From assembly GCA_021166725.1 (NCBI GenBank), contig JAJPES010000065.1, positions 20,962-84,961 on the forward strand: 64,000 bases of DNA, written 5' to 3'. Under the pieces are notes generated by a model that saw nothing but the letters and a program-made list of their open reading frames with translations, was not told where the DNA came from and ran no database searches. The translations under genes were made by a program, and so were the position numbers. This document shows, piece after piece, positions 18,782 through 24,025 of this stretch (the stretch's first letter is position 1; every line of letters begins with the position of its first letter). Origin of the DNA: Burkholderiaceae bacterium. GTDB lineage: Bacteria; Pseudomonadota; Gammaproteobacteria; Burkholderiales; Burkholderiaceae_E.

Positions 18782-19207
18782 ATGATCGGCATTCTCGTCG
18801 TCTCGCACGAACCCTTCGGCAGCGCGCTGATCCGCTGCACGCGCCACGTGTTCGGTCGGCTGCCGCCGCAACTGGCCGCGCTCGACGTCGTCCCCGACGA
18901 GAACCCCGAGATGGCGTTGAGCGCCGGGCGCGAATTGCTCGCGCGCATCAACGACGGCAGCGGCGCCGTCGTGTTCACCGACGCGTACGGCGCCACGCCT
19001 TCGCGCATTGCGGCGCAGCTCGCCGTGCCCGATCGCGTGCGCGTCGTGGCCGGCGCAAACCTGCCGATGCTGCTCAAGGCGCTGCAGAATCGGCGCATGC
19101 CGGTCGACGAGCTCGTCGAAGCGTTGCTCGACAGCGGCCACCGTTCGATTCGCGCGCTCGACGCCGACGACGGTGCGGCGTCCCCGCCCGGGCCGGCCTC
19201 GCCATGA
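18782..19207 (+). CDS. PTS sugar transporter subunit IIA (mannose/fructose type)
   Basis: MIGILVVSHEPFGSALIRCTRHVFG...DAYGATPSRIA. Confidence 0.88.
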   Translation: MIGILVVSHEPFGSALIRCTRHVFGRLPPQLAALDVVPDENPEMALSAGRELLARINDGSGAVVFTDAYGATPSRIAAQLAVPDRVRVVAGANLPMLLKALQNRRMPVDELVEALLDSGHRSIRALDADDGAASPPGPASP

Positions 19208-19476
19208 CGAAGGCCGAGGTCATCGTCGTGAACCGGCTCGGACTGCATGCGCGCCCGTCGGCGCGCATGACCGCAACCGCGTCGCGCTATCGGGCCGAAG
19301 TCTGGCTGTCGAAGGGCGCGCGCCGCGTGAACGCCAAGAGCATCATGGGCGTGATGATGCTGGCCGCCGCGAAGGGCAGCACGCTGGTCATCGAGGCGGA
19401 AGGGCCCGACGAGGCCGAGGCCGTCGAGGCGCTGCGCGCGCTGGTCGCCGCGGGCTTCGAAGAGGAGCCGGGCTGA
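19204..19476 (+). CDS. ptsH: phosphocarrier protein HPr
   Basis: VVNRLGLHARPSARMTATASRYRAEVWLSKGARRVNAKSIMGVMMLAAAKGS: His-15 and Ser-46-type sites both present. Confidence 0.95.
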   Translation: MTKAEVIVVNRLGLHARPSARMTATASRYRAEVWLSKGARRVNAKSIMGVMMLAAAKGSTLVIEAEGPDEAEAVEALRALVAAGFEEEPG

Positions 19477-19480
19477 TCCC

Positions 19481-21199
19481 ATGTTCAGCCTGCACGGCAT
19501 CGGCGTCGGCGGCGGGATCGTCATCGGACGAGCGCGCCGGCTGGAAGCGAGCGAGCGCGACGTGCCGCGCTACCGTGTCTGCGACGACCAGGTCGAGCGC
19601 GAGCTGGCGCGGCTCGAGACGGCGATCGAGGTGGTCAAGGCCGAACTGCAGGCGATCGCCGAGCAGCTGCCGGAGGAAGGCCCCGCCGAAGCGCGCGCGC
19701 TGCTCGACGTGCACGCGATGATCCTCGACGATCCGGCACTGGTCGATGCGGCGCGCGACAGCGTGCGCGAGCACCTGCGCAACGCCGAGTGGGCCTTCGC
19801 CGCGCAGGCCACGCACCTTGCTGCGCAGTTCGACGAGATCGACGACGAGTACCTGCGCGAGCGCGGGCGCGACGTGCTGCAGGTCGCCGACCGCGTGACG
19901 CGCGTGCTTTCCGGGTCGCGCACGCGCACGTATACCGGACGCGACGAGCCGCGCATCTTCGTTGCCGAAGACCTCTCGCCGGCCGACATGCTTTCGCTGC
20001 GCTCCGCGGTGGGCTTCGCGATCGACCAGGGCGGCGCCACTTCGCATACGGCGATTCTCGCGCGCGGGATGAACGTCCCGGCCGTCGTCGGCGCCGGCCT
20101 GGCCAGCCGGCTGATCGCCGACGACGACTGGCTCGTGCTCGACGGCGAGCAGGGCGTCGTCATCGTCGCGCCCGACGAAAGCGTGCTGTCTCAGTACCGC
20201 CATCTGCAGGCGTTGAGCCTGCGCGAGCGCGAGGCGCTGCAGAAGCTGTTGCACGTGCCGGCAATCACGAAGGACGGCACGTCGATCCAGCTGTGCGCGA
20301 ACATCGAGCGGCCCGACGAAGCGGTTGCGGCGCTCGCCGGCGGTGCCGAGGGCGTCGGCCTGTTCCGCTCGGAGTTCCTGTTCCTGAACCGGCGCGAGCT
20401 GCCGGACGAAGACGAGCAGTACGAGGCCTACCGCGAAGCGGTGGTGGCGATGCAGGGGCGGCCCGTGACGATTCGCACGCTCGACGTAGGCGCCGACAAG
20501 GCGCTCGCGCGCAGCGGCGCGCAGATCGCGCAGAATCCGGCGCTGGGCCGGCGCGCGATCCGCTACTGCCTGTCGCAACCGACGATGTTCCTCGCGCAGC
20601 TGCGCGCGATCCTGCGCGCCTCGGCGCACGGTCCGGTGCGGCTGCTGATCCCGATGCTCGCGCACGGGCACGAGATCGACCAGACGCTGCGCCTGATCGG
20701 CATCGCCAAGGTGCAACTGAGCGAGCGCGGCATCGCCTTCGACGAGGGCATGCCGGTGGGCGGCATGGTCGAGATCCCGGCGGCGGCGCTGTCGGCCAGT
20801 CTGTTCGTGCGCCGGCTCGATTTCCTGTCGATCGGCACCAACGATCTCACGCAATACACGCTGGCGATCGACCGCGCGGACCACGAGGTCGCGTCGCTCT
20901 ACGAACCCTTCCACCCGTCGGTGCTGCGGCTGGTGGCGATGACGATCCGCGCCGCGCGGCGCGCCGGCAAGCCGGTGGCGGTGTGCGGCGAGATGGCCGG
21001 CGACTGGGGCGCCGCGCACCTGCTGCTCGGCATGGGCTTGCGCGAGTTCTCGATGCACCCGGCGAGCCTGCTGCGCGTCAAGCGCGAGATCCTTCGCGCC
21101 GACGTGACGCAGCTGGCGCCGCGGGTGGCGCGGCTGCTGCAGGCGGTCGATCCGCTGCGGATGCGCGCGCAGCTCGCGCGGCTCGTCGGCGCACCCTGA
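19481..21199 (+). CDS. ptsI: phosphoenolpyruvate--protein phosphotransferase (EI)
   Basis: GGATSHTAILARGMNVPAVVG...GVGLFRSEFLFLNR...SIGTNDLTQYTLAIDR. Confidence 0.96.
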   Translation: MFSLHGIGVGGGIVIGRARRLEASERDVPRYRVCDDQVERELARLETAIEVVKAELQAIAEQLPEEGPAEARALLDVHAMILDDPALVDAARDSVREHLRNAEWAFAAQATHLAAQFDEIDDEYLRERGRDVLQVADRVTRVLSGSRTRTYTGRDEPRIFVAEDLSPADMLSLRSAVGFAIDQGGATSHTAILARGMNVPAVVGAGLASRLIADDDWLVLDGEQGVVIVAPDESVLSQYRHLQALSLREREALQKLLHVPAITKDGTSIQLCANIERPDEAVAALAGGAEGVGLFRSEFLFLNRRELPDEDEQYEAYREAVVAMQGRPVTIRTLDVGADKALARSGAQIAQNPALGRRAIRYCLSQPTMFLAQLRAILRASAHGPVRLLIPMLAHGHEIDQTLRLIGIAKVQLSERGIAFDEGMPVGGMVEIPAAALSASLFVRRLDFLSIGTNDLTQYTLAIDRADHEVASLYEPFHPSVLRLVAMTIRAARRAGKPVAVCGEMAGDWGAAHLLLGMGLREFSMHPASLLRVKREILRADVTQLAPRVARLLQAVDPLRMRAQLARLVGAP

Positions 21200-22295
21200 A
21201 CTTGCGTCCGAGGTGCCGCGCGAGCATCGGCGGCGGCATCCGGATCCAGTGCGAGCGGGCGTACAGCAGCAGCCGCGCCGCGCGCGCTGCGCGGTTCGTC
21301 GCATCGGGGTGCATCGGAAACAGCGCGAGCGGCATCAGGCGATCGGTGAGACGCACCACTGCAGCCGGCGGAGCGCCCGCCTGCGATGCTTCGATCAGCT
21401 CGGCGGGAATCGGCGTGCCGAGGCAACGCTGCGCCTGGCGCAGCGCGTGGAATGCCGGACGCGCGAGATCGAGCGCCTCGGCGCGCGGCCAGAATTCGTC
21501 CCGGAAGCCGGGCTCGTGCGTCGCGAAGTGGCGCAGCAGTTCGTCGATGTCGACGAGATCGCGCAGCGCATCGGCGAGGTCGGAGCTCGACATCAGGTGC
21601 GCCATCGCGTGCAGCGTCATGTCGATCGGCGACAGTACGTGCAGTGCGGTACCGGGCAACGGGCGAGCATGCTCGAGCAACAGTCGCGCTTCCGGCCTGG
21701 CGCGTCCCGTCGACATCACGATGTTGTGGTGCAGGTCGACTTCGACCCGGCGCTCGGCGTGGCGCAGCGGCGGCAACTCGTGCGACCAGCTGCGGTAATA
21801 GCGGTCGTCGTGCTCGTCGAGCGGCACGGCCGTCCAGCCGCGCTGGCGCAGCCGCGACTCGACGTCGGCGAGTCGTTCGCGCGGCAGCATCAGGTCGACG
21901 TCGACGAGGTGGCGACCGACTGCGTTCGGCAGTCCACCCAGCGCGTAGGCGCAGCCCTTGAGCGCGACGAGCGGCGCAGGCAACTCGTCGCGCAGCGCGT
22001 GGATCACCCGATCGAGTTCCCACAGCGCAGCGCGACGCTGCGCCTCGGCGTGGGCGAGCGCCCCGAGCAATTGATCGACGGCCGCTCGGGGCAGCGCGTC
22101 GAGCAGCCCTGCCTCGCGCAACTGCCACCCGATGCGCGCGAGCAGCCTTGCGCGCCGCAGCACGCGCAGCAGCAAATCCAGGTCGCGCGGCGGCAGGCCG
22201 ACGATGCGATGCGGCTCGCGCAGTGCAGCGACGACGAGCCCCGCGACGCGCGTCGCGGGCGATGCGTCGACGCCGAGGGCCTCGCGTTCAGGCAT
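21078..22295 (-). CDS. nucleotidyltransferase family protein (NTP_transf_5-like; HPr-rel-A cassette member)
   Basis: LVALKGCAYALGGLPNAVGRHLVDVDLMLPRERLADVESRLRQRGW...EVDLHHNIV; start overlaps the kinase stop by 8 bp. Confidence 0.8.
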   Translation of the reverse strand: MPEREALGVDASPATRVAGLVVAALREPHRIVGLPPRDLDLLLRVLRRARLLARIGWQLREAGLLDALPRAAVDQLLGALAHAEAQRRAALWELDRVIHALRDELPAPLVALKGCAYALGGLPNAVGRHLVDVDLMLPRERLADVESRLRQRGWTAVPLDEHDDRYYRSWSHELPPLRHAERRVEVDLHHNIVMSTGRARPEARLLLEHARPLPGTALHVLSPIDMTLHAMAHLMSSSDLADALRDLVDIDELLRHFATHEPGFRDEFWPRAEALDLARPAFHALRQAQRCLGTPIPAELIEASQAGAPPAAVVRLTDRLMPLALFPMHPDATNRAARAARLLLYARSHWIRMPPPMLARHLGRKFRVRRRAARAARASAADRPPAAAAPPAAPAASRRREGSRA

Positions 22296-23217
22296 CGACC
22301 GGTTCTACCAGCGCCTCGAGCGCCTCGACCGCTTCGTCGAGCGACGAATAGCGAAGGCGCATCCGGCGCGATGCGCCGACGATCTTCTTCACGGTGTCGA
22401 ACGCCGGTTCGCCGAGCAGTTCGTAATTGAAGGCGTTGGTGGCCAGCGAGAAGAAGGCTCGATCCGCGGGAACGGGTTCGAGCTCGAGTGCGGCGTCCGC
22501 AGCCCAGCGCGGAAAGACGATCCAGGCCGCGCGCGCCGTTTCGCTCGCTCGCGCGACGCTGTCGGAGGGCGCGCGCAGATGCACGATGTCGCCTTTTGCG
22601 GTCGCCTCGATGCGCGGCCCGAAGAACGCGTCGGGCGCGAATGCGCGCAGCACGTCGATCGATTCGTTCTTCAGCGGCATCGGTCGCGGAAAAGGAACGA
22701 AGTCCATCGTGCCGGGACGTACGAGGCCGAACTCGTCGGACAACAGGCGCCAGCCGCGATGCGCGAGTGCCGCGCACAGCGTCGTCTTTCCGTGGCCGGG
22801 CATCGCCGGCATGACGAGAGCGCGGCCGTCGCGCTCGAGTACCGCGGCGTGCAGCATCAGGAAGCCGTGGAAGCGCAGTGCGACGACGAGGTTCAACCCC
22901 CATTCGAGAACCGCGAGCGCGTGCGCCGCGGGCCGGTCTTCGTGCGGCGCGCGCCCGTCCACTCGAAAGCGCACGCGTCGGGCGGAGCCCGGCCCGCGAA
23001 GCGGCGCTTCGCACAGCGACACATGACCGTGGAAGACGCGCTCGTCGTCGACCAGCGGGTAGTTGCGATACAGCGCATGCAGGGCTCGCGCGGGCTCGCG
23101 CAGGCCGACGGTCATGCGCAAGTCGAAGGGGCCGATGCGCAGCCCGAGGCCGCCGCGAATTCGCTCGACGAACGTTTCGGCGTCGATCGTGGCGACTGTT
23201 GCCGCAACGTCGTTCAC
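22288..23217 (-). CDS. HprK-related kinase A (P-loop kinase)
   Basis: GTG start overlapping the upstream stop (GTGA); VLERDGRALVMPAMPGHGKTTLCAALAHRGWRLLSDEFGLVRPGTMDFVPFPRPMPLKN. Confidence 0.85.
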   Translation of the reverse strand: MNDVAATVATIDAETFVERIRGGLGLRIGPFDLRMTVGLREPARALHALYRNYPLVDDERVFHGHVSLCEAPLRGPGSARRVRFRVDGRAPHEDRPAAHALAVLEWGLNLVVALRFHGFLMLHAAVLERDGRALVMPAMPGHGKTTLCAALAHRGWRLLSDEFGLVRPGTMDFVPFPRPMPLKNESIDVLRAFAPDAFFGPRIEATAKGDIVHLRAPSDSVARASETARAAWIVFPRWAADAALELEPVPADRAFFSLATNAFNYELLGEPAFDTVKKIVGASRRMRLRYSSLDEAVEALEALVEPVDA

Positions 23218-23516
23218 ATCGGGGCCGACTCGATGAGCCCGACGGTCTCGAGGTGCTGCAGCAGGTTCGCGACGTGGTGCAGGAATTGCGGATCGGGCTT
23301 GACGTCCTGCAGTTCGGCCAGCGCAAACGCCGCCTCGGCGGCATTGCGTGGCTCGATCAGGCACTCGCGCAGCAGCAGTGCCGCGCCTTCGTTCAGGAAA
23401 TGCGTCTGCCCGGACGGCCGGTGATAGAGGACGTGTCCGGACTCGGAATGCGCCCAGGCGAAGGGCGCGCCGGACGGAACCCGCCAGCGTGGCGGTCCGC
23501 CGGCGGGCGGGTTCAT
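23214..23516 (-). CDS. PqqD-family peptide chaperone-like protein (HPr-rel-A system)
   Basis: RWRVPSGAPFAWAHSESGHVLYHRPSGQTHFLNEGAALLLRECLIEPRNAAEAAFALAEL; ATGA overlap with the upstream gene. Confidence 0.78.
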   Translation of the reverse strand: MNPPAGGPPRWRVPSGAPFAWAHSESGHVLYHRPSGQTHFLNEGAALLLRECLIEPRNAAEAAFALAELQDVKPDPQFLHHVANLLQHLETVGLIESAPM

Positions 23517-24025
23517 ACGTCGGTGATGTTCACGCGCACGCCGAACGACGCGATCGAAAGCGCCGAGACGAAGGCGCCGTGGACACCGTCGTTCACGTTC
23601 TTCTCGGCGAGGTTCTGCGCGTTGTTGCAGTTGCCGTTCGGCGAGTAGTAGTACGTGCCGCCCTGGTCGCACATCTCGGTTGTCGAGACGTCTGCGTATG
23701 TGGGCTTGCCATTGGAACCGGTGCCGTCGTACTTGCAGTACGTGCGGCCAGGCGTGAACCTGGTGACCTCGATCGGCCCGGTGTCCGGGACGAACCAACC
23801 CTTGTCGTTTCCGCCCAGGCCAGGATCCTTGGCGCAAAAGGCCGTTTCGGTTTCGGATCTCGCAAGAACGGCGCTGGTGCGCGCGATTTCGGCCGCGACG
23901 CCCTGGCGCAGCGAGAAGATCGTCGGCATCGCGACGAGCAACGCGCGCCGGCCGGTGGAGGGGATGCGATTCGAGGAAGGCGCCGAGGTCCATGCATCGC
24001 CCGGCCTGCCAATGGACTCGTTCAT
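23513..24025 (-). CDS. uncharacterised 170-aa protein heading the HPr-rel-A-type operon; hydrophobic N-terminal segment and four Cys after it
   Basis: RRALLVAMPTIFSLRQGVAAEIARTSAV...AFCAKDPG...TYCKYDGTGSNG...EMCDQGGTYYYSPNGNCNNAQN; GGGGAG ahead of the ATG; stop overlaps the pqqD-like start. Confidence 0.7.
   Translation of the reverse strand: MNESIGRPGDAWTSAPSSNRIPSTGRRALLVAMPTIFSLRQGVAAEIARTSAVLARSETETAFCAKDPGLGGNDKGWFVPDTGPIEVTRFTPGRTYCKYDGTGSNGKPTYADVSTTEMCDQGGTYYYSPNGNCNNAQNLAEKNVNDGVHGAFVSALSIASFGVRVNITDV

Follow-up and report, generated by a model that had tools for sequence, protein, structure and literature searches.

Small proteins with twin-arginine-like leaders as candidate substrates of an HprK-related kinase A cassette in Pseudomonadota

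The question raised by this locus is which molecule is modified by an HprK-related kinase A encoded in a Burkholderiaceae genome, and what part is played by the small protein encoded at the head of its gene cassette. The stretch analysed (hereafter referred to as the window) comprises 64,000 nucleotides of contig JAJPES010000065.1, and the cassette, situated on the reverse strand, encodes in order the small protein (hereafter referred to as the head), a PqqD-like protein, the kinase and a nucleotidyltransferase. An earlier interpretation made from the letters alone (the sequence-only reading) had taken the small protein for either the substrate of the modification or a product that is exported. 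This proposal gains support from the linkage of the head to the cassette and from a twin-arginine (Tat)-like leader carrying the PxVL...xxS spacing of the precursors of linear polyphosphorylated peptides (LPPs) in Bacillota. The head family is tied to the cassette, its leader and Ser positions are conserved, the genes overlap and the catalytic motifs of the enzymes are intact. The head is likely to be the substrate of the cassette, judging from these sequence features, and is probably both modification substrate and exported product. A probability of roughly two-thirds is assigned to the complete scheme, in which the cassette is a self-contained modification system and a Gram-negative counterpart of the LPP system, with the head as its substrate.

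The head gene (23513..24025, (-) strand) encodes 170 aa, and its open reading frame (ORF), with an ATG start and the upstream ribosome-binding site GGGGAG, is directly visible in the sequence. It is followed by the PqqD-like gene (23214..23516, (-); TIGR04353, 43.2 bits against a cut-off of 35), the kinase gene (22288..23217, (-); GTG start; TIGR04352, 322.9 bits against a cut-off of 200) and an NTP_transf_5 nucleotidyltransferase gene (21078..22295, (-); PF14907, 160.7 bits against a cut-off of 31.2). The head and PqqD-like genes overlap by 4 bp (ATGA), the PqqD-like and kinase genes by 4 bp (GTGA) and the kinase and nucleotidyltransferase genes by 8 bp, and the gene order, coordinates and overlaps of the sequence-only reading are borne out, as is its assignment of the three genes after the head to the HPr-rel-A cassette. 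Both NCBIfam equivalog models are exceeded at their curated cut-offs by adjacent genes, which identifies the locus as an HPr-rel-A cassette, and the third partner, the nucleotidyltransferase, follows. The enzyme cassette is already named in NCBIfam, and the precedent for its chemistry is provided by the LPP and paeninodin systems.

The head lies beyond the NCBIfam description of the cassette. The window head has no match in scans of the NCBIfam and Pfam libraries, and none of 48 aligned heads falls in a family described there, the scans returning one chance-level amidase match and one generic Tat-signal match at 0.0087. No relative of solved structure was found by sequence or fold search, the head model having a mean predicted local distance difference test (pLDDT) score of 68.6. 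Searches of the literature for HPr-rel-A, HprK-related kinase, or PqqD with exosortase returned no papers, and the head protein is mentioned in none of the papers found. The window head is a real gene. Of the 394 ORFs of the window, it alone is matched (E = 4e-11) by a head profile built without the window sequence; when it was shuffled 2000 times, the best-scoring shuffle reached E = 0.034.

Further cassettes were collected from relatives, from one scan of genome contigs, which favours kinases like that of the window, and from a phylum-wide sample, in which the kinase exceeds its cut-off in 61 of 399 genomes. In almost all loci the gene upstream of PqqD codes for a small protein that shares this leader. 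Among 89 non-redundant HprK_rel_A loci a head was scored in 76 (E < 1e-4), mostly directly before PqqD, and among 30 held-out loci never used for the profile in 25 (E < 1e-5); a general absence of the small ORF from other HPr-rel-A loci, on which the sequence-only reading had staked its proposal, was thus not borne out. The 13 loci without a scored head include one whose head is encoded at a later position of the cassette, further downstream (L013), one with the head on the opposite strand (L087), two cut by contig ends (L034 and L062) and one in which an ORF containing RR lies upstream but has diverged too far to be scored (L068). No head was found in L065, L066 and L069 despite several kb of upstream sequence, a PrmC-like methyltransferase ORF being present there instead; in the same three loci the PqqD and kinase matches fall within one ORF. 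The cassettes are spread over the Pseudomonadota, with one example from the Planctomycetota (L033).

Of 61 related genomes, 14 have the kinase, and it is precisely these that the head profile matches at E < 1e-7, the other 47 giving no such match (Fisher p = 4e-14, which is overstated by the relatedness of the genomes); the sensitivity of this comparison is partly circular, some of the loci having been used to build the profile, while its specificity is not. Weaker matches occur in six kinase-free genomes (E 2.5e-4 to 6e-3); the strongest of them, on closer examination, is not a head but a long solute-binding-like protein with an Arg-Arg signal of its own (L106).

These patterns bear on a rival explanation in which the head, as an effector or structural protein destined for export, has no more than the operon in common with the modification genes, whose real substrate would be some other molecule, for example an exopolysaccharide precursor. 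In 17 of 43 loci (flanks up to 6 kb), a gene for XrtA/PEP-CTERM exopolysaccharide (TIGR03013, TIGR04063 or TIGR02915) lies nearby, which would suit such an explanation, as would the few cassettes with no head nearby, the very different GYWKN subtype of heads described below, and the occurrence in two genomes (G001 and G017) of an additional head that lies away from any kinase gene. However, the head family and the kinase co-occur across genomes, and in G041, where the cassette is permuted to kinase-nucleotidyltransferase-head-PqqD, the head still adjoins PqqD. The leader is conserved beyond the needs of a signal peptide and has LPP-like spacing, and the stand-alone heads retain both the leader and the C-terminal motif, as additional substrates would. 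Mere sharing of the operon is therefore considered improbable. Two tandem heads occur in G002, and together the tandem and stand-alone heads look, from their sequences, like one machinery serving several substrates. The stand-alone heads at L103 (4381-5115, (-)) and L104 (3858-4553, (-)) have neither PqqD nor kinase nearby, the cassette being elsewhere in the genome, and are possible additional substrates. A second full cassette is present in the genome of the window (L002/L105, contig C75), with a different head of 226 aa and another motif type, and its kinase and that of the window cassette belong to separate clades in the tree of kinases.

Conservation within the head was counted over 41 cluster representatives less than 60% identical to each other. 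The Arg-Arg pair is invariant (41/41), and Pro34 (38/41), Leu39 (40/41), Ala48 (38/41), Ser51 (35/41) and Ser160 (37/41) are strongly conserved, while the middle part is variable. The leader consensus, RRxL[LVI][KR]GAAxxAPx[IV]LTLRSGAALA/xxS (the slash marking the predicted cut), resembles a twin-arginine signal with an AxA cleavage site; across the family, Lys or Arg stands four residues on from the Arg-Arg pair in 37 of 40 heads and AxA is present in 79%. In the window head the leader occupies residues 26-48 (RRALLVAMPTIFSLRQGVAAEIA; 23882..23950, (-)), the region around Pro34 being the probable site of recognition by the PqqD-like protein. Two candidate phosphosites follow, the first being Ser51 (codon 23873..23875, (-)), the third residue past the predicted signal-peptidase site, and the second Ser160 (codon 23546..23548, (-)) in the C-terminal motif (S...ASF). 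The columns of Cys64 and Cys119 each hold Cys in 35 of the 41 representatives, and the two residues may form a disulfide once the protein is exported.

Among the closest known systems is that of the LPPs of Bacillota, whose biosynthetic machinery consists of an HprK-like kinase, a discrete recognition element, an NTP transferase, a SipW-like peptidase and a pump (PMC13381572). The LppA leader is marked by P-13, V-11, L-10 and T-1. The only residue phosphorylated in LppA is Ser3 of its core, which bears more than one phosphate (PMC13381572). With the leader Pro set to 0, V, L, T-1 and Ser3 stand at +2, +3, +12 and +15. In 63 heads counted likewise, Ile or Val is found at +2 in 56, Leu, Met or Val at +3 in 58, Ala at +12 in 55 and Ser at +14 or +15 in 58, against 8-19% Ser per later position pair. 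The window head has the same ARTS block, shifted two residues later by a small insertion. Set against the LPP motif YxxPxVLxHQxIxFETxxS, the heads have P, V/I, L, the cleavage position and Ser in register but not the Tyr or HQxIxFET. This agreement in spacing is strong evidence, though not proof, of an analogous and possibly homologous use of the leader.

A variant of the scheme has the kinase target the C-terminal Ser160, the N-terminal Ser being merely signal-peptide context. A motif [ACSG]xxS[LFIVM] occurs within the last 35 residues of 61 of 68 heads (90%), well above the 10% of preceding windows and 25% of shuffles, and the lasso peptide kinases PadeK and ThcoK phosphorylate the last precursor residue (PMC9266682). 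The head motif types SxxAxxS, SCWxS and GYWKN also follow the kinase tree, on which they need 13 changes compared with 34.5 after shuffling, an agreement expected if cassettes move as units. Against Ser160 stand its position, up to about 27 residues before the end of the head, the exact LPP spacing of the N-terminal Ser and the existence of the GYWKN-like subtype, which has the cassette without the C-terminal motif. Owing to the LPP spacing and this subtype, Ser160 was placed behind Ser51, and its choice as the target remains a tentative alternative. The GYWKN-like heads (L003, L004, L005, L061 and L071) are accompanied by a kinase clade of their own.

The profile of the PqqD family matches lasso B1 recognition proteins in the PDB (TfuB1, 6jx3, 2e-4; TbiB1, 5v1u, 0.014), and the PqqD-like protein would act as a discrete recognition element, with PxIL in the leader of the head as its binding site. 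The single window kinase sequence found no match in the PDB and the kinase alignment matched HprK (3TQF) weakly (E 0.076); a fold search was therefore used, in which the AlphaFold2 model (pLDDT 94.8) matched PEPCK and HprK structures. The kinase shares with HprK (TIGR00679; PDB 3TQF, 1KKL) its fold, P-loop and catalytic His/Lys/Asp positions, represented by His123, the P-loop GHGKT with Lys144, and Asp161-Glu162; the kinases that were compared keep the His, GxGK[ST]T and Asp-Glu. It would phosphorylate a conserved Ser of the head, perhaps repeatedly, most likely at Ser51 and otherwise at Ser160.

The nucleotidyltransferase carries LKG and DVD motifs, DxD being present in 69 of 70 homologues, and it was identified at 69 of the 81 loci whose downstream DNA is long enough. 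In pseudomycoidin biosynthesis, the C-terminal Ser is phosphorylated by PsmK and receives hexoses from the nucleotidyltransferase homologue PsmN, which may instead attach a nucleotidyl group that is then replaced by a host enzyme (PMC9266682). By analogy with PsmN, the NTP_transf_5 protein may next add a sugar or nucleotidyl group onto the phosphate.

The cassette resembles that of LPP (lppA-K-B-S-D-N) in having a discrete recognition protein, an HprK-like kinase and an NTP transferase, and its heads resemble LPP precursors (35-200 aa; PMC13381572) in the conserved N-terminus and variable C-terminus, the P/V/L leader positions, the Ser three residues past the cleavage site and the proximity of polysaccharide loci. 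Unlike in LPP clusters, no SipW-like signal peptidase or MsbA-like transporter is found among recurrent cassette neighbours. Neither Tyr-16 nor HQxIxFET is present in the head leader, which is Tat-like, the heads have an additional conserved C-terminal Ser motif and two Cys, and the hosts are Pseudomonadota and one member of the Planctomycetota, not Bacillota. The lack of a dedicated leader peptidase and pump would be explained if the leader doubled as a twin-arginine signal, the modified head being exported by the Tat system and then trimmed by an ordinary signal peptidase; TatC is encoded in the window's own genome. With the paeninodin and pseudomycoidin lasso peptides (PMC9266682) the cassette shares an HprK-like kinase, a B1 recognition protein, a nucleotidyltransferase (which adds hexoses to phospho-Ser there) and a conserved C-terminal Ser; however, its substrate would be a protein-sized exported polypeptide in which this Ser is not the last residue. 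Membership of the lasso peptides was rejected, as no macrolactam cyclase was seen among the neighbours and no B2-type family match exceeded the cut-off in the whole genome.

Several observations weigh against the proposed scheme. HprK and the lasso kinases have Asp-Asp where the cassette kinase has Asp-Glu, the second Asp being Glu in all aligned HprK-related kinases, so that the His/P-loop Lys/Asp-Asp motif of TIGR00679 is incomplete. The aromatic residue in the [YW]xxP bound by lasso and LPP recognition proteins is missing from the head leader, and the nucleotidyltransferase of an LPP cluster showed no activity in a heterologous host (PMC13381572). The leader of the window head is a shortened and degenerate copy, with an h-region 4 residues shorter, 2 extra residues before Ala48 and no Lys or Arg after RRALL. 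Moreover, the mature head, of about 120 aa, is far bigger than most cores of ribosomally synthesised and post-translationally modified peptides.

The surroundings of the window cassette suggest another role, in which the kinase acts on the neighbouring HPr and regulates carbon metabolism, the head being incidental. The cassette adjoins a gshB-EIIA-HPr-EI cluster, with HPr at 19204-19476; its immediate neighbours are a major facilitator superfamily transporter gene upstream and the convergent ptsI downstream. However, HPr and EI are found beside none of 43 other cassettes, and an authentic HprK (TIGR00679, 308 bits) is encoded elsewhere in the genome, which together make a role on HPr unlikely and led to its rejection as a general function. 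As the kinase travels with the head and not with HPr, this explanation is given very little weight. The genomic partners of the kinase also differ from those of HprK.

If the head is the substrate, the findings that are new are the substrate family itself, a leader that seems to serve two purposes, the lack of any peptidase or pump dedicated to it, and the spread in Pseudomonadota with one example from the Planctomycetota. A candidate substrate and two candidate residues are thereby provided for a kinase cassette named by curators, for which no describing paper was found; the phosphopeptide logic of LPP and paeninodin would extend from Bacillota to Gram-negatives with another solution for export and leader removal, and the leader motif offers a means of finding such substrates. 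The exopolysaccharide gene TIGR03013 is present in 13 of 14 genomes with the kinase and in 12 of 47 others (p = 9e-6, the related genomes not being independent), the genome of the window having such a gene elsewhere than at the cassette, and LPP and paeninodin clusters also lie near polysaccharide loci (LPP: PMC13381572). It is conceivable, but rather unlikely, that the phospho-Ser is a point of covalent attachment or priming for XrtA-type exopolysaccharide, the heads being proteins that anchor the matrix and the cassette defining a new class of ribosomally made, Tat-exported, kinase- and nucleotidyltransferase-modified proteins in Pseudomonadota and Planctomycetota. The link to XrtA makes the purpose of these phosphopeptides directly testable.

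A scan for promoters and terminators returned 0 promoter-like sites. In the closest relative (L012/L026), the head leader and the C-terminal part, upstream of PqqD, lie in different frames, owing to a frameshift or an assembly error. At the other end of the window cassette, the 3' ends of the nucleotidyltransferase ORF (-) and ptsI (+) overlap by 122 bp (21078-21199), which is unusually long for convergent genes, and the Ala/Arg-rich C-terminal tail of the nucleotidyltransferase is encoded antisense to ptsI.

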